Below are positions 2,934-45,109 of a DNA stretch of 64,000 nucleotides, in pieces (the stretch's first letter is position 1; every line of letters starts with the position of its first letter). Source of the DNA: a virus; IMG/VR virus record IMGVR_UViG_3300046817_000863, positions 1 to 64,000 of that record; one strand, given 5' to 3'. A program made the translations under genes and the position numbers. The notes beneath the pieces are model-generated. The model searched no databases, was not told the origin of the DNA, and worked only from the letters and a program-made list of their open reading frames with translations.

Positions 2934-4727
2934 TCAAAGCACCGTAGGGGCCGCGACTTTCGTCAATTCCTGATACAGGATGCAGGCGTCTACCTGCCCT
3001 GCAGTCAGCCCTGACAGCGCGGCATCGGCAGTGAATATCAGCAGCACTGGGCTACTTGCAACGGTGCTCGCACCAAGTCCAGTTTCAGCCTGAACATAGT
3101 CAGGCGCGACGGTTAACCCAAGCGCATACACGTTGGAATAGGCAGTATCAGAGACGGCGTTCCCCATGCTTACTCCGGGGTTAGCGACACCGGCAAACGC
3201 AGTATTTGATTTGATCCACGATCCGATCACCACCGTGTTAGCTGGCAGCGTGAGCCCCGTTGGCACAGAAACGCGAGTGGTGCCGGGTACAAGCAACGCC
3301 TGGTTGTAGTTCACCCGATAGCATTCCTGCGACACACCGGAGCCCGTTGTTGTCCCGCCACCAGTGATATTCACTGTCGTAATGCGGCCATCGGAGGTGA
3401 CTCCCTGCCCCGGGAACACATACTTCATTGGCTGAATATAGTGCGGGTCAACGAGACTAACTGATGTCACGCCGGTTCCCGACACGACCGCGGTAGCGAT
3501 GAGCAGCCTGTCTGCCTGGCACTGCGTTGCGCCGGGAATCAGGGTCAGCCCGCTTGAAGTCGTGATCGTTGTCCCGCTGTAGGACAACTCCATCGTTGGG
3601 CCATATTTGCAGAAGTATGCGGTATATGAGCCACCGGCCGCGGTGAATGAACCGTTATACCCTGCCCATGTATCGGGCGCATCGCCCTGCTGCCCAGAGC
3701 AATTACTCCCAGCGGGGCAGTGGAGAGAAGCCGTGGTAGCGGTTCGGTCTATGGTGAAGCTATTGGCTGCTCCGCTCCCTCCACCACTGCCGACCGGGAC
3801 GCAGCCTGTCGCGTCTCCATTGGCGAGAATACCCGTTCCCGATTGACCTATCGGGCATTGCACCGGAGTGCCGGCGAGCGCCGTAGCCAGCGCTGCCTGC
3901 CCCGTGGTGCTCGAATTAATAGTGCCTGGCAGATCAGCAGCCACGATCGCACGCAAGCTCATCGCGCCGCTGATCCCGTTGGGGGTCGCCATGACCCTGT
4001 TCGCGGGCTGTCCCCCAGCCGAAATGATCGTAAACGTTCCCGCACTCGTGATCGGTCCTCCCGATACGGCCAGATACGAAGGCACCGACATGTCGACGCT
4101 CGTCACGCTGCCTCCACCGCCTCCACCAGGTCCGGGAGGGCCTTGCGGTCCAGTCGGCCCGGTGGGTCCAGCCGGTCCCGGGACAGTGCTGGCAGCGCCA
4201 GCGGGCCCCGTCGGTCCAGCCGGTCCAGTGGTGCCTGTAGCGCCAGTAGGGCCTGTCGGTCCCGGAGGGCCTGATGCTCCAGCAACACCCGCGGGGCCAG
4301 CGGCTCCTGCAGGTCCAGCGGGGCCTGTGGCGCCACTCGCACCAGTGCTCCCAGCCGGCCCGGGGCTCCCAGCTGGGCCTCCCGGCCCAACACCGCCAGG
4401 TCCGTTTGCGATACACGTAACGTTGGCCGTGCTCGCGAAGTTGGCAGTGACAGCGGCAAGCGTCTTGCCGGTCAATTGCGTGATAGTAATGGGGGTCTGC
4501 GTAGCAGGTGCAGCCCCGGTATAGCAGGCAACGCTCACGTCGATCAGGTTCCAGTTATGCGTGATCGTCAAGCTGGTAACCGCTGGGCCACTGGTAGCCG
4601 ATGCAGGCGGCAATGATCCAAAACTACTGCCGCCGCCACCGGTGCCGCCGCCCCCGCCGCCCGCTGGCAACTGAGCAAACGCCTCAAGGCACAGCACGGC
4701 CAGGGCGAGCGAAATTCTCGTCTTCAT
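2934..4727 (-). CDS. Collagen-like tail fibre protein with signal peptide
   Basis: The 597-residue product begins [19 protein letters not shown], a signal peptide, followed by a glycine stretch. Residues about 114-200 are Gly-X-Y repeats rich in Pro, Ala and Thr, such as [11 protein letters not shown] beta-rich C-terminal half follows. Phage collagen-like segments form trimeric fibre shafts, and the C-terminus would be a receptor-binding or trimerising head. The gene sits between the small membrane/lysis genes and the SGNH gene. The GC-rich repeat creates long chance reading frames on both strands, which were ignored. Confidence 0.82.
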
Positions 4728-30163: not shown

Positions 30164-30555
30164 TCGCCATCCTCAGGAGGGTCGGGCCAGTGCATCCAGT
30201 GCGTTACGAGATCCCAGGAGTACGTTGTCCCCAGTTCGTCGTCGAGGCAAAGCTCTTTCCGCCCACCCCTGACACTGAACCAGCCACACTCCACCGCCCC
30301 GCTACCGACGGGCATCCAGACAATGATGAACAGATCATGCAAAGGTTCCGCCTCCGATACCTTAATCCAGCCGCTCATGCTTTCGACCTGCACAGGCTCA
30401 AGCCACGGGTGATGCTGTCCGTGAAGAAATGCGTTCATTGCCCTCGCACCCTCAAGATTCACCCGATCGAACACTTCTTTCAACTCAGGCGTCATCCCGA
30501 ACCCGAGGTCAACGTCCCTAACCTCAATCAGGGGCGACTTGATCCATCCGCTCAT
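30160..30555 (-). CDS. DUF551-like protein with duplicated MSGWIK segment
   Basis: The 131-residue product has a DUF551-type C-terminal half (WIKVSEAEPLHDLFIIVWMP...THWMHWPDPPE). The N-terminus starts MSGWIKSP, and MSGWIKVS recurs at residue 60, so the gene may be a fusion or partial duplication. Its start overlaps the recombinase stop by ATGA. Confidence 0.6.
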   Translation of the reverse strand: MSGWIKSPLIEVRDVDLGFGMTPELKEVFDRVNLEGARAMNAFLHGQHHPWLEPVQVESMSGWIKVSEAEPLHDLFIIVWMPVGSGAVECGWFSVRGGRKELCLDDELGTTYSWDLVTHWMHWPDPPEDGE

Positions 30556-31241
30556 GCTTTCATCCTGCGCACGATCCGATGAATGTACTGCCTTACGAAA
30601 GGCCCACCTTCGCGCGTCCTGAATCCGGCCTCGTTCAGCGCACCAGCTATCCCTTCGAGCGTCATCTCCGACCCCCGAGCCTCAAGCACGTACCGAATCA
30701 CCGCCTGCTCATGCTCATCCTCAATCAGCCGCTTCTTGCCGTTGCCCCCAACCTCGACACGACACCCGTAAGGTACCTTGCCCCCAAGCTTCTCCCCATT
30801 AACCCGCTTATGCTCCAGCGCCGCCTTCGTCCGATAACTGATCTCTTCCCGCTCCAGTTCCGCCAGCGACCCGAAAAGCTTAATCACAAACCGGCCCTGC
30901 GGGGTCGACGTATCCAGAGACTCGTCAATACTGAGAAAAGCAATGCGCCTCTTCTCCGCATCGTCCACCGTGTCCAGCAGATCCCTGAGGCTGCGCGTCC
31001 ATCGATTGAGCTTCGTTACAACAAGCCCATCAATCCCCTTAGTCCGGAACAACTCCAATACCCGCTGCGCTCCCGCACGCTCGAAATCCTTGCCGCTGAA
31101 CCCAGCATCCACCTCAATCCCGGCCAACTCGTGCCCGTGAAGACCACAGTACATCTGAATCCGACGCCGCTGATCCTCCAGCGATACCCCATCAAGCGCC
31201 TGCTCCTCCGTACTCACCCTCGCATATCCTATTACTCTCAT
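30552..31241 (-). CDS. Serine recombinase (resolvase/invertase family)
   Basis: The catalytic domain starts MRVIGYARVSTEEQ, with Ser10 as nucleophile and Arg8 beside it. DFERAGAQRVLELFRTKGID and VVTKLNRWTRSLRDLL carry further conserved Arg and Asp residues, and GSLAELEREEISYRTKAALE forms the long E helix. The C-terminal part (EMTLEGIAGALNEAGFRTR) is a short DNA-binding domain. At 229 residues it is longer than a classic resolvase and shorter than large serine integrases. An in-frame ATG six codons upstream is possible. Its neighbours are small late genes and the terminase genes. A 637-bp non-coding region with repeats lies just upstream. Confidence 0.88.
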   Translation of the reverse strand: MRVIGYARVSTEEQALDGVSLEDQRRRIQMYCGLHGHELAGIEVDAGFSGKDFERAGAQRVLELFRTKGIDGLVVTKLNRWTRSLRDLLDTVDDAEKRRIAFLSIDESLDTSTPQGRFVIKLFGSLAELEREEISYRTKAALEHKRVNGEKLGGKVPYGCRVEVGGNGKKRLIEDEHEQAVIRYVLEARGSEMTLEGIAGALNEAGFRTREGGPFVRQYIHRIVRRMKA

Positions 31242-31374
31242 GTCATGATTATGCATCATGACGGGCTAGAGTGACAAGAGCATTCCACCCTAACATCGAG
31301 CAATTCTTATTGCGAGAAGTTAGCCTTACTGCTCCTTCTGCCTCTTCCCAACCTTCAACCTGCCTGCGTAGCAA

Positions 31375-39600: not shown

Positions 39601-40797
39601 TCAATGTTTTATGGGTTTCTCGTTCAATGACAGCGGTTCGACCTTATCCCCCGGGGCCACACTAAGCCCTTCTGTTATCAAAGCATTGCGCCCATCTCTG
39701 TCGGCCCTGTACTTGTCGTGTACCTCGTCCAGCAGCGCCATTAGTCTGGTTTGGCGTGCCGGAATCAGGTGAGCGTAGTGCTGCCGGATGGTGTTCGGGG
39801 CATCCCCCAGCATCAACGCGACGTCCTCGATGGTCGCCCCGGCCGCGAGAAGTTCGGATGCGAGCGTGTGCCGGAACCGGTGGGTGTGGGCATTCGGCAC
39901 GCCAGAGAGGCGGTACACGGATGCAAGGGTCTGGCCGAATGTGTTTACGTGCCCCATCTGCGTACCGCGGCCCGTCCAGAAGTAGTACTCTCCGTCAGGC
40001 TGGCCTCCAGCAGGCACCGGGACACGATCCAATGCTTCCCTGACCTCGGGATAGAGCCTAAGAGACAGATACTCTCCGTTTTTGATTGCCCTGATTCGCA
40101 CAGAATTGCCCTGTATGGCGTCGCGTCGCAGGCAGGCGATGTCAGATACCCTCAAACCGTACCGGCGCGCCAGCAGGACCGCAGCACGTGCACGAAGCCG
40201 TTCGTATGCGGACTGGCCTATCCGGTCGCAGGCGGCAATGATCGCAGTGACCTCCTCTGCGGTGTACGGGGTTCGCTGGCGTGCGCTCGCGGCACGGGGC
40301 GGTTTCATGTGTGCGGCCGGATTGTCGTCGGTCCATCCGCGGGCCTGGCACCAGCGGAAGAACTGGCGTAAGAACTGGAGCTCCTTCGTCCACGCCAGAG
40401 CCTCAAGTGATTCACGGCGCCATCCGCGGTATCCGTCCAGTGCTTCGAGGTTCCAGTCTGCTACGCAGGGCAACTTGTGCCGGTCGGAGTATTCACATAA
40501 CAGCCGAAGCCGGCGCTTGTTTTTTCTGGCAGTCGAATCCTTCACTTCAGCCTGCTGCAGAAACGCGGCGCACGCATCGGCAATCAGTTTTGGCGTGGGC
40601 CCGCCTTCGTGCTCGAATACTGCCAGCTTCGCCTGTGCCGCGGCCCAGCTGCGCGTATCCAGCGATGCGCGAACGGGCTCCCGGTCGGCCGTGCCCTGAA
40701 TCCAGATAGGGCACTCGCATTTGATGTAACGACGGCCCTTAGCCTTATGGGGGCACTTCGAGGTATGACGACGGTAGATAGTGAGCACGGAAGGCAT
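39601..40797 (-). CDS. int: Tyrosine integrase
   Basis: The 398-residue product has an N-terminal Cys knuckle (RRHTSKCPHKAKGRRYIKC, then EC), a SAM-like core-binding region (residues about 68-165) and a catalytic domain. Arg216 lies in GLRVSDIACLR, the HxxR box is HRFRH (His306, Arg309), and Tyr341 in IRQHYAHL is the nucleophile. It mediates site-specific integration. The Cys-rich N-terminus is, from memory, common in acidobacterial integrases. It is the last gene of the long minus-strand operon, beside a small HTH protein that could be its directionality factor. Confidence 0.92.
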   Translation of the reverse strand: MPSVLTIYRRHTSKCPHKAKGRRYIKCECPIWIQGTADREPVRASLDTRSWAAAQAKLAVFEHEGGPTPKLIADACAAFLQQAEVKDSTARKNKRRLRLLCEYSDRHKLPCVADWNLEALDGYRGWRRESLEALAWTKELQFLRQFFRWCQARGWTDDNPAAHMKPPRAASARQRTPYTAEEVTAIIAACDRIGQSAYERLRARAAVLLARRYGLRVSDIACLRRDAIQGNSVRIRAIKNGEYLSLRLYPEVREALDRVPVPAGGQPDGEYYFWTGRGTQMGHVNTFGQTLASVYRLSGVPNAHTHRFRHTLASELLAAGATIEDVALMLGDAPNTIRQHYAHLIPARQTRLMALLDEVHDKYRADRDGRNALITEGLSVAPGDKVEPLSLNEKPIKH

Positions 40798-41371: not shown

Positions 41372-42400
41372 TCAGCATAGAACCTCGAATAAGGGTTGGT
41401 CGATAACCCGTACTTTCTCCGGTCTATACTTCGCCCCGGCGAATACCTCCCACGGGATATGATTTTCGTTCTGCGTTTTGTCGTATGCTCCGACTACCCA
41501 TCGCTGGAAACCAACAAGTTCAGGAGTCCGCTTGTACGGCATCGGGTAAGGACGTGCTCCAAACTCTCGGAGCTGGGCACGACGGAAGTCTCTGTCTTCG
41601 TGAGTCTCACCGGGCCAGTACCCGATGAGCATGTAAACCATGATGTGATCGGGTTTAACGCCGTACTTTACGAGCCGCTCGAGCCCTGCAAATAGCCGGT
41701 GCTCATCTTTCCGGTTGTCCCATGCGGTGTAGATCCGCTTCGTGCTCATCTTGTTGTCGCGGTAGTCGATGCTAGCGATTGCCTCGGCCGATTCGTCGGT
41801 AAGAAACCTAGCGTTGATGCCCTGAGAGAATGAGACCTTGAACCCGCCGTCTCTGATCTCTGCTATCCGGGATTGCCAGTTACTCTGACCAAAGAAATCA
41901 TTGTCGAGGAGAAGCAATTCTCGAGGGTGCGGCTCCCCTCTCCAGATTTCCGCTATGGTTTGCTCCTCTCGTACCGCGCCCTCTTTCTCAGGAACGACAC
42001 AGAACTTACAGCGGAGCCGGCATCCTCGTTGCGTGAAACCGATACTCTGACGAAACTCGGGGTAGATACTGTAATCCTGACGGGTTGTCGTAATGCCGTG
42101 ACCCTCGAGCGAGTCCGAAACACTCCACCCAGTACCGCCGACGATTGCACCTGAATACGCTCTGAGTAGCCTTTCCGCTATCGGCCGGGACTTCTCGAAG
42201 ATTACGGAGCCGTAAACACGGTCGGGTATCTCTCCCTCGAACAGTGTCCGCTCTGGCTGCCCCGTGCGACGAAAGAGAACCTCGTCTCCGCTGTCGCGGT
42301 GATGAGCCGCTATTCGCATCAGAGCAATGTTCGGGAGAGCTCCGTCGAGATGGAAGAGCATAACCCTCATAGCCGGAGCCGTGTCCTCTGTGTCGCTCAT
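41372..42400 (-). CDS. Radical SAM protein with B12-binding-like N-terminus
   Basis: The 342-residue product begins with MRVMLFHLDGALPNIALMRI, then AAHHRDSGDEV, similar to cobalamin-binding-type N-domains. SIGFTQRGCRLRCKFCVVPE carries the CxxxCxxC radical SAM cluster motif. YMLIGYWPGETHEDRDFRRA fits the later barrel. The substrate is unknown. Its start overlaps the upstream stop. It shares an operon with a cytosine methyltransferase and an ASCH protein, which raises the possibility of nucleic-acid modification. Confidence 0.8.
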   Translation of the reverse strand: MSDTEDTAPAMRVMLFHLDGALPNIALMRIAAHHRDSGDEVLFRRTGQPERTLFEGEIPDRVYGSVIFEKSRPIAERLLRAYSGAIVGGTGWSVSDSLEGHGITTTRQDYSIYPEFRQSIGFTQRGCRLRCKFCVVPEKEGAVREEQTIAEIWRGEPHPRELLLLDNDFFGQSNWQSRIAEIRDGGFKVSFSQGINARFLTDESAEAIASIDYRDNKMSTKRIYTAWDNRKDEHRLFAGLERLVKYGVKPDHIMVYMLIGYWPGETHEDRDFRRAQLREFGARPYPMPYKRTPELVGFQRWVVGAYDKTQNENHIPWEVFAGAKYRPEKVRVIDQPLFEVLC

Positions 42401-42761: not shown

Positions 42762-43051
42762 ACAGGCACCCTCTTTTCCAGGTCAGAGACTCGCTTAAAC
42801 AGATCACCTACTATCGACCTGAGATTGCCGCCCAGCTTTACCGTGTTCACCTCACCCGTTGGCTGGTACGCCATCTTGAACCCATCCTCGGATTCTTTTT
42901 CCGAAACACGATCCTTCAAGTACTTGGCAGTCTCGGCAGCGAGATGCGACAGATACTTGTCGTAGATCTCGGTACGCTCCCCTTTCTGCAGGTACTCGGC
43001 TATCTGGAGAAGAGCCTCAGCAACATCCCAGTCAGTCAGATCTTTCTTCAT
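42758..43051 (-). CDS. Small hypothetical protein
   Basis: The 97-residue product is charged and helical (MKKDLTDWDVAEALLQIAEY, AAETAKYLKDRVSEKE) and ends in a possible coil (VGDLFKRVSDLEKRV). It is overlapped by ATGA on both sides. No family was recognised. Confidence 0.5.
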   Translation of the reverse strand: MKKDLTDWDVAEALLQIAEYLQKGERTEIYDKYLSHLAAETAKYLKDRVSEKESEDGFKMAYQPTGEVNTVKLGGNLRSIVGDLFKRVSDLEKRVPV

Positions 43052-43551
43052 TCCTGCCCTTCAATTGCCGCGTTAGTGTCTCGTTGTTCCTTAATCGAAT
43101 CGGCAAGCTCCTTCAAAGACCGCTTGCCGCGCCATTCAGCTGGTAATGGGTAGCGTGCTGCCCTAAGCTCCCGCTCCATTACGAGTGCTCGCTCAGACAG
43201 TTCCGCTACCGTCTTCCTGAGTTCGGTCAGCTGGGCGTTGAAGAACATAATCTGGCTGTCGTAAGAGATCTCTCCTGACGTGTTCTGGCACTTGGCTCCT
43301 CCTGCCCTAACCTCATGCTCCAGGTCAAGCATTCGCTTTTCGAGAGAAAAATAGCGTGTGTCGTTTATCCGCTTCTCCGCATTTTTGGGAGAGAATACCT
43401 CGCTGGGTGGCTTTTCGGGAATCTCGAGCAATGTCAGAAGTTCCTCATAAGCCCAACCGCCAGGCCCGAAATAACCCTGATGACTCTTTCCGGATTCTGC
43501 TTTGAGGAAATTCAGGGTTTCATTGAGAGCGTCACGTTGAGATTTTGTCAT
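43048..43551 (-). CDS. Coiled-coil protein downstream of methyltransferase locus
   Basis: The 167-residue product has an N-terminal helix (MTKSQRDALNETLNFLKAES) and a long coiled coil (ALVMERELRAARYPLP after TELRKTVAELSER). Its ATG shares a base with the TAA of the alternative-frame ORF in the methyltransferase locus (TAATG), so that ORF, not the methyltransferase frame, is its coupled partner. Confidence 0.55.
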   Translation of the reverse strand: MTKSQRDALNETLNFLKAESGKSHQGYFGPGGWAYEELLTLLEIPEKPPSEVFSPKNAEKRINDTRYFSLEKRMLDLEHEVRAGGAKCQNTSGEISYDSQIMFFNAQLTELRKTVAELSERALVMERELRAARYPLPAEWRGKRSLKELADSIKEQRDTNAAIEGQE

Positions 43552-44900
43552 TATGCTTTCTTGCCTCCTTCAGTCACGACCTGGAATCTGTTATCGATTT
43601 GAGAGTGAATCTCAGAGCCTGATACCTGCTCTCCGAGCAAGCAGGACAAGTGCATACGCTGCCTGGAGAGGTACAACTCCGTTTCCGAGCATCCGGAGGG
43701 AATCGGTTCTCGTATCACCCAGTGAATAGGCCACCCCATCAACCATGAAACGAACGCCGGGTTCAGTCGCCGGCGCGAGGTCGGGACGGTCGGAGATGAT
43801 TGATCGCCATGCATCGACGTCTCCGGGTCCGGGAGGAAAGATACTTGCCGGATTGCATCTGTGAGAGAAGCAATCGCCAGAGGCATCCCCGCACCATTGC
43901 CGTTGTAGCGCTTCTCCTTCAAGACCGCTTGCCGCGCTTTCCGGGATGTTGCACTCTCGCCATCGTTCATGACACTTGCATCCGGAGTCGGCCAGTTCGA
44001 TTTCCGTGCTTGCTGATCTAGTCCCATCTCGTCTTTCCGCGCCCCCCCCCTGCTCCGAAACGAGTCCGTCGCTGGTGTCTGCCAGTTGCGGGCTTGGGTG
44101 TTGATGTCCATCCCCGCTTTCAAATCCGCTGCGCACAACCGAGAGCGGTCCCCTCTCTCCGGGTCCGATGCCGACGGGGTCGCCCAATTCCGCAGCACCT
44201 GACGCCCCAGCAATCCGTTCGTCTCCACGTCCGCATCCACACATGCGCCGTCTTTGTAATCCCGGCTCGTCGGTGTACCCCATTGTTCGGCTTGTTCCGC
44301 GATAGTCACTTGGCGCCCGTTCCCAATCGTGGTTCGATGGTTCCGGGGTCCACCCGATCCCGGAGCATCCGGGGTTCTCCATTGGACGGTAGGCCAGGAT
44401 GAACGCTCGTTTCCGCTGGTGCGGGGCTCCGACGTCCGATGCTCGTAAAGATACCCATTCCGCATCGAACCCGAGCCTGGCAAGTTCTCCGAGTACGATT
44501 CCTCCAGAGGGATTAGCGATAACTGCGGGGACGTTCTCAACAAAGATCCATCGTGGTTGCACCTCGCGAATGACTCGGATGTATTCAAAGAACAGTCCGC
44601 TGCGCTCTCCGCGGATGCCGGCGCGCTTCCCTGCATAGCTGAGGTCCTGACAGGGGAACCCGCCGATGATTCCATCCACACGCTTACGCCAAGGTCTGCC
44701 GTTAAAGGTTCGTATGTCGCTCCAGACAGGCGCCGGATGGATGGATCCTTCCGCCATGCGAGCCGCCAGAGTCGCGACCGCCGGAGCTTCGATCTCCACA
44801 TAGCAGACTGTTCGAGCCGTTGGGACTGCGATTCTGATAGCGAGGTCCAATCCTCCCCCACCTGAGAACAAGGAAATGATTCTGGGACTATTAGCCACAT
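43551..44900 (-). CDS. Alternative-frame protein fully overlapping the cytosine methyltransferase (W-x-T-P repeat family)
   Basis: The 449-residue ORF is +1 to the methyltransferase frame. It has five W-x-T-P units: WRTP 174, WGTP 207, WATP 239, WQTP 273 and WPTP 303, each followed by an Asp-containing segment. Near the C-terminus is LNPAFVSWLMGWPIHW (379-394). I remember similar phage proteins with 'SPxRTS', repeated WPTP and a terminal LNPxFVxWLMGxP. ATG 44900 overlaps the TGA of the upstream gene (TGATG), lies 5 nt after GGGAGG, and the TAA overlaps the next ATG (TAATG). These junctions match the rest of the operon and argue that it is translated. Biochemical function is unknown. Confidence 0.72.
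   Translation of the reverse strand: MWLIVPESFPCSQVGEDWTSLSESQSQRLEQSAMWRSKLRRSRLWRLAWRKDPSIRRLSGATYEPLTADLGVSVWMESSAGSPVRTSAMQGSAPASAESAADCSLNTSESFARCNHDGSLLRTSPQLSLIPLEESYSENLPGSGSMRNGYLYEHRTSEPRTSGNERSSWPTVQWRTPDAPGSGGPRNHRTTIGNGRQVTIAEQAEQWGTPTSRDYKDGACVDADVETNGLLGRQVLRNWATPSASDPERGDRSRLCAADLKAGMDINTQARNWQTPATDSFRSRGGARKDEMGLDQQARKSNWPTPDASVMNDGESATSRKARQAVLKEKRYNGNGAGMPLAIASLTDAIRQVSFLPDPETSMHGDQSSPTVPTSRRRLNPAFVSWLMGWPIHWVIREPIPSGCSETELYLSRQRMHLSCLLGEQVSGSEIHSQIDNRFQVVTEGGKKA
43612..44898 (-). CDS. DNA (cytosine-5) methyltransferase, GTG start inside AUGUG
   Basis: Read from GTG 44898, the 428-residue enzyme has motif I IISLFSGGGGLDLA (residues 7-20) and motif IV GGFPCQDLSYAG, with the catalytic Cys at about 83. 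Motif VI is FVENV (about 120-123), motif VIII is QRKRAFILAY (about 161), and motif X is LGNGVVPLQAAYAL near the C-terminus. The region between VIII and IX, the target-recognition part, repeats LADT/LADS/LGDP. It methylates cytosine C5, which could protect phage DNA from host restriction. The GTG lies 7 nt after GGGAGG and 2 nt after the other frame's ATG. A GTG ten codons upstream is possible but lacks the ribosome site. Confidence 0.92.
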   Translation of the reverse strand: MANSPRIISLFSGGGGLDLAIRIAVPTARTVCYVEIEAPAVATLAARMAEGSIHPAPVWSDIRTFNGRPWRKRVDGIIGGFPCQDLSYAGKRAGIRGERSGLFFEYIRVIREVQPRWIFVENVPAVIANPSGGIVLGELARLGFDAEWVSLRASDVGAPHQRKRAFILAYRPMENPGCSGIGWTPEPSNHDWERAPSDYRGTSRTMGYTDEPGLQRRRMCGCGRGDERIAGASGAAELGDPVGIGPGERGPLSVVRSGFESGDGHQHPSPQLADTSDGLVSEQGGGAERRDGTRSASTEIELADSGCKCHERWRECNIPESAASGLEGEALQRQWCGDASGDCFSHRCNPASIFPPGPGDVDAWRSIISDRPDLAPATEPGVRFMVDGVAYSLGDTRTDSLRMLGNGVVPLQAAYALVLLARRAGIRL

Positions 44901-45109
44901 CAAGACCTCCCATGGATATCGTGGTCACTCATAGCTTCCCCGCTACTGCACCCTTCCTCATCATCCTCACCACAGACCTGCAGGAAATGGTCGATCGCAT
45001 AACATTTCGGACAGCCCCAGATATTAGCCCCTTGAGGGTCAAAGGGATTGGAAGCTATCATTGGCGATTCCGTGATCTCCCCGCACTCGCTGCACTTCCA
45101 TCTGGTCAT
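44900..45109 (-). CDS. Small zinc-ribbon protein
   Basis: The 69-residue product has WKCSECGEITESPM then WGCPKCYAIDHFL, a C4 zinc ribbon. The C-terminus is acidic. The gene's last codons encode the GGGAGG ribosome site for the two overlapping ORFs that follow. Its own start overlaps the upstream stop. Confidence 0.6.
   Translation of the reverse strand: MTRWKCSECGEITESPMIASNPFDPQGANIWGCPKCYAIDHFLQVCGEDDEEGCSSGEAMSDHDIHGRS

Follow-up and report, generated by a model that had tools for sequence, protein, structure and literature searches.

The closest described counterparts of the gene pair studied here are the DNA (cytosine-5) methyltransferases (C5-methyltransferases) made as two polypeptides. 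M.EcoHK31I comes from Escherichia coli and has the target YGGCCR, and its two open reading frames (ORFs) reportedly overlap, an account ascribed to Lee et al. in 1995. The large polypeptide of this enzyme carries motifs I-VIII and X and the small one only motif IX, both being needed for methylation in vitro, and fragments of C5-methyltransferases can complement each other in trans (PMC3404938). M.AquI is split after motif VIII, and its small subunit has both IX and X (PMC3404938). In this study we analyze a viral DNA stretch of 64,000 nucleotides (nt), positions 1 to 64,000 of the IMG/VR record IMGVR_UViG_3300046817_000863, which is called the window below, and in it a locus where two long ORFs, F1 and F2, overlap on one strand along nearly their full length (about 1.3 kb), F2 being offset by +1 from F1. 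What is observed for this pair and its relatives, namely the overlap, its conservation, the frame-specific selection, the distribution of motifs and the paired start, is read here, with a probability of about 0.8, as one C5-methyltransferase made as two separately started polypeptides from overlapping frames, in the manner of M.EcoHK31I.

All features of the locus lie on the minus strand. F1 (43612..44898), the catalytic subunit with motifs I-VIII and X, starts at GTG 44898, has 428 amino acids and ends with TGA; F2 (43551..44900), the protein with W-x-T-P (WxTP) units and motif IX, starts at ATG 44900, has 449 amino acids and ends with TAA at 43551. Both ORFs had been described in an original prediction made from the letters alone, and we find them as described. 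The same bases that encode the catalytic motif IV of F1, PCQDLS (44638..44655), give PVRTSA in F2 (residues 83-88), and the WxTP units that make up the middle of F2 are the shifted reading of LADT-type units of F1, both correspondences having been foreseen in that prediction. The WxTP region (43769..44396) holds about five cassettes and is a putative target-recognition region of F2, while the F1 reading of it is a disordered linker. Motif IX, LNPAFVSWLMGWP, follows in F2 at 43728..43766, and motif X, LGNGVVP, in F1 at 43669..43689, near the F1 C-terminus. A single-chain enzyme of PF00145 would have all motifs I-X in one frame; here motif IX is found in F2 only.

The match of F1 to Pfam PF00145 (E 6e-38) covers residues 6-175 only, which correspond to motifs I-VIII; motif X is present, and shifted sequence stands in the place of motif IX. 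The AlphaFold2 model of F1 is confident at residues 1-172 and at a helix at 397-424 that contains motif X, and disordered at 178-350, and its best Foldseek matches, M.HaeIII and M.HhaI, align with it across about 170 columns, which correspond to the large domain. This pattern fits an F1 that is without the small recognition domain, and it does not reveal the structure of the F2 cassettes. In DNA order, the F2 motif LNPxFVxWLMGxP comes directly before motif X, at the place of motif IX. The Streptomyces violaceusniger plasmid pSTRVI02 and the Gordonia phage JKSyngboy have the same motif in one frame with I-VIII and X, and in the Streptomyces phage Samy F2 carries both IX and X; the F2 motif IX profile matches these relatives at 4e-9 to 6e-12, its matches in the single-chain ones (E about 1e-9 to 1e-11) lying between I-VIII and X. 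Since the single-chain relatives hold I-VIII, IX and X together, we favor two subunits of one enzyme, and because F2 holds motif IX and its WxTP region sits at the corresponding position, F2 would be the missing target-recognition part, a function that the original prediction had not assigned to it. In the PHROGs database, F2 matches phrog_1008 ("DNA methyltransferase") at E 2e-28, as do all 50 aligned F2 proteins (that of the window and 49 relatives), and this family also matches the motif X end of F1; phrog_116 covers the catalytic part of F1 and, weakly, the LNPxFV part of F2. These matches are a first sign that both frames are parts of one enzyme.

Evidence on which frame is under selection comes from the rates at codon positions, where positions 1, 2 and 3 of F1 correspond to positions 3, 1 and 2 of F2, respectively. 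The rates were taken from 670 pairs at 0.05-0.10 divergence among 77 sequences, the pairs being non-independent. At F1 positions 1, 2 and 3 they are 0.043, 0.027 and 0.149 over motifs I-VIII, where F1 position 3 is the fastest; 0.209, 0.054 and 0.048 between VIII and IX, where F2 position 3 is the fastest; and 0.072, 0.024 and 0.098 over IX-X. Sliding windows of 15 codons in 76 sequences place the change from an F1-like to an F2-like pattern directly behind motif VIII and the reverse change at motif X. Constraint is thus uneven along the overlap, acting on F1 in motifs I-VIII and X and on F2 in the WxTP region and in motif IX. Each frame is accordingly selected where it carries methyltransferase function and elsewhere must mainly stay open. 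Third-position changes in the methyltransferase frame, whose variation the original prediction had named as a check, do not freely break F2; in the middle third of the overlap this position is the slowest to change.

The double open frame is more than chance. With the F1 protein and its codon usage fixed, F2 stays open across all 427 codons in 3 of 5000 permutations, and resampling of base composition leaves it open over that length in 0 of 3000; when F2 is fixed instead, F1 remains open in 0 of 5000. The single-chain control, E. coli Dcm, has no F2, with 14 stops in the equivalent relative frame. Stops were further counted in 27 divergent sequences without preselecting an open F2, an earlier count having been biased by the choice of loci with open F2 and full-span F1. 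From PCQ to motif VIII there are 0 F2 stops against 27.1 expected, a depletion not seen in the third frame used as control; upstream of PCQ there are 26 against 39.9. F2 similarity over motifs IV-VIII exceeds an F1-preserving null by more than that of the third frame does (0.60 vs 0.32), so a mild constraint acts on F2 there as well. The z-scores against this null are large but inflated by shared ancestry; third and reverse frames were therefore added as controls, and the claim rests on the difference from them, not on the raw z-scores. In phages outside the training set, the F2 profile scores 65-221 bits against means of 11-41 for F1-preserving permutations.

The pair is widespread. In an initial scan of viral contigs 31 F2 relatives turned up, all of them lying over an F1-like methyltransferase, and profile scans yielded 80 loci from viral contigs and 80 from bacterial genomes, the latter chiefly of Rhodobacterales and other alphaproteobacteria. 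Since one conserved cassette (RKDEMGLD) was selected for in these scans, its ubiquity among their loci is uninformative. Both frames span the full length in identical phase at 162 loci (125 distinct sequences), F1 is interrupted or ended by a contig edge at 33, and F2 without F1 occurs at 0 loci across all scans. In all relatives that tblastn searches found in annotated phages and plasmids, F2 is shifted by +1 against F1, among them the Actinobacteria phages Mycobacterium SG4, Gordonia JKSyngboy and Streptomyces Samy; the phages Lacticaseibacillus R9.1, Acinetobacter ABMM1, Salmonella S9-5 and Stenotrophomonas S72 as well as Paenibacillus larvae phages; and further relatives from Acidovorax, Komagataeibacter, Synechococcus and a Leptospira plasmid. 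The range therefore takes in phages of Actinobacteria, Firmicutes, Proteobacteria and Cyanobacteria besides that plasmid. Even the closest relatives of the window pair are far removed from it (L036, about 74% in the aligned parts). A widespread dual-coded family had been suggested beforehand, and the homologues bear this out, each examined one lying over a C5-methyltransferase; the F2 homologues that the same prediction described as free-standing are not so, as all those examined overlap a methyltransferase.

The two starts of the window pair share the string ATGTG (44896..44900), with the F2 ATG at 44900-44898 and the F1 GTG at 44898-44896, and a Shine-Dalgarno-like site common to both, GGGAGG (44906..44911), stands 5 nt from the ATG and 7 nt from the GTG. 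The single site and the two starts lie within one string, GGGAGGTCTTGATGTGG, just as had been predicted. The predicted junctions with the neighboring genes are present as well: the TGA (44902-44900) of the upstream ORF (44900..45109) overlaps the F2 ATG as TGATG, and the ATG (43551) of the downstream ORF (43048..43551) overlaps the F2 TAA as TAATG. These junctions tie F2, not F1, to its neighbors, and 4-base gene overlaps are found among the operon neighbors. An ATG in frame with F1 at 44913, where there is no good Shine-Dalgarno site, may be an alternative F1 start. Across the family, a start spacing of -2, (A/G)TGTG, occurs at 23 distinct loci, and a spacing of +4 at 14 loci plus ABMM1, S9-5 and the Leptospira plasmid, with the start region (A/G/T)TGAATGAG; ATGxATG is a second form of the paired start besides ATGTG. 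Paired initiation is common in this family and not universal, because 67 loci have no close start pair, F2 beginning later or the F1 start lying elsewhere.

As to the cassettes, clustering of 746 WxTP units shows that families of units recur in varied order and combination across divergent phages. Exchange of recognition units occurs in multispecific C5-methyltransferases of the SPbeta type, where every cassette has a target sequence of its own, and the reshuffling in F2 resembles this exchange, the likeness extending here to modular exchange only. It is possible, at somewhat below even odds in our judgment, that F2 is an exchangeable multi-specificity subunit overprinted on its own catalytic partner, whose WxTP cassettes each act as a target-recognition unit and are swapped between phages by recombination; such a reprogrammable methyltransferase would have arisen through pairs of compensating frameshifts and been kept functional by subunit complementation. 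In four viral contigs (L004, L007, L015 and L019) the WxTP part, motif IX and motif X are split over the frames differently, forming a natural series of frame swaps in which the cassettes are still recognizable as WxTP sequence, whichever the frame; some of these variants may be pseudogenes or sequencing errors.

Several observations weigh against reading the pair as one two-part enzyme. For the pairs closest to the window, periodicity is no more than suggestive, so the argument rests on the family. The AlphaFold2 model of F2 is poor outside the C-terminus, being confident only at residues 380-425 (the motif IX helix and the next helix, with a predicted local distance difference test score of about 87-90), and Foldseek with this model found no fold match; a PDB profile search with F2 gave no match either. 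The best place of the F2 motif IX profile in E. coli Dcm, residues 400-413 (RRLTPRECARLMGF), lies upstream of the Dcm motif X, and the match (E 0.13) is non-significant alone, its position being informative and its score not. Residues 1-80 of F2, upstream of PCQ, are less constrained, and F2 could start further inside. Moreover, the target-recognition domain of M.EcoHK31I is predicted in its large subunit (PMC3404938), whereas here selection on the stretch from VIII to IX acts in F2.

One other explanation is that F1 is the sole gene and its codon bias simply leaves F2 open as a shadow ORF. The genomes are moderately GC-rich, and in GC-rich relatives F1-preserving permutations do sometimes give long F2 ORFs (22 of 100 for phage phiKX1, 29 of 100 for Samy). 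Yet selection switches frame in the middle region, F2 similarity tops the F1-preserving nulls by more than the third frame's does, the F2 pattern persists where the GC content is 48% (a phage locus) or 44% (further loci), and the Dcm control has 14 stops; we reject this explanation as extremely unlikely, on account of the frame switch of selection and the permutation tests. Programmed +1 frameshifting, which would fuse the catalytic part of F1 to the WxTP and motif IX part of F2, is unlikely in our view. It agrees with the constrained frame changing at a single point, directly behind motif VIII, and would rejoin I-VIII, the recognition region and IX in a single chain. Against it, F2 is already stop-free from PCQ on, although a frameshift behind motif VIII would not require this; F2 begins at a start of its own, part of a recurrent paired site; and the fused product would be without motif X, which remains in F1.

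Quite unlikely, too, is that F2 is a separate protein merely overprinted on F1, with a role of its own as a regulator, an inhibitor or another DNA-binding protein. F2 has no match in Pfam or NCBIfam, which together with the missing fold match leaves room for such a role; against it, F2 holds the motif IX that is absent from F1 and always overlaps its partner, and single-chain relatives have this motif within the methyltransferase.

For the enzyme made as two polypeptides, the following course is proposed, on the grounds of the sequences and of analogy. The ribosome site GGGAGG would serve both the F2 ATG and the F1 GTG, and both proteins are probably translated. F1 would give the S-adenosylmethionine-binding and catalytic domain (I-VIII) and motif X with a disordered stretch between them, and F2 would give motif IX and the WxTP cassettes, the likely site of DNA target recognition. 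As in M.EcoHK31I, F1 and F2 may then associate into an active enzyme that methylates phage DNA, probably against host restriction. In evolutionary terms it would correspond to a single-chain enzyme in which two compensating frameshifts have put the recognition segment into the +1 frame, a segment that is now provided in trans.

On this proposal, a widespread phage enzyme is annotated as one gene though it is two, with the label "DNA methyltransferase" or "hypothetical protein" put on either frame. A pair of Synechococcus phages alike in arrangement and ORF coordinates, L002 (PP438429.1, 1865-2980) and L003 (OM868082.1, 1858-2997), have different frames annotated in matching stretches, one record giving F2 as a hypothetical protein and the other F1 as a methyltransferase. 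If F2 carries target recognition, F1 cloned alone would be inactive, which may explain silent orphan phage methyltransferases. As a collection of long overlapping genes on one strand, the family is also unusually large, and selection in each frame is clear region by region; with it, the origin and upkeep of overlapping genes become directly testable. Elsewhere in the window, a putative radical-SAM-like protein (CRLRCKFCVVPE) is encoded at 41372-42400 on the same strand, just downstream of F1 and F2; two putative site-specific recombinases, one serine-recombinase-like and one tyrosine-integrase-like by sequence reading, lie at 30552-31259 and 39601-40797; and a possibly virion-associated protein containing a collagen-like stretch of G-x-x repeats lies at 2934-4727.

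Compared by motif distribution, the pair is like M.EcoHK31I in having I-VIII and X on the large polypeptide and IX on a second one, which is encoded in an overlapping alternative frame, as is reported for that enzyme. It differs in that F2 starts at the site of F1, overlaps nearly all of it and carries multiple WxTP cassettes; F2 is also far longer than its M.EcoHK31I counterpart. M.EcoHK31I itself was not identified in the E. coli genomes searched with enterobacterial members of the family. From M.AquI, with IX and X on the small subunit, the window enzyme is distinguished by its motif X in F1, whereas the Samy relative, whose F2 has both, shows an M.AquI-like division. In the ShiLan domain, an out-of-frame HNH endonuclease, an inserted homing element, is hidden in a phage methylase (PMC11855218); a second protein out of frame within a phage methylase gene is common to both cases, while the second frame here consists of the methyltransferase's own parts. 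We found no report of the F1/F2 family as dual-coded in the literature searched. The entry of phrog_1008, which is the F2 family, does not state that its members overlie another methyltransferase frame. The same nesting and phase are already in GenBank for the Paenibacillus larvae phage Diva (gp49/gp50, "g49 internal gene"), where F2 starts inside F1 and not at a paired start, and the function is given only as "DNA methyltransferase". Two-polypeptide C5-methyltransferases with motif IX apart, the Diva internal gene and phrog_1008 were thus known before; new here are the breadth of the family, the near-total overlap, the recurrent paired start and the reshuffled cassettes.
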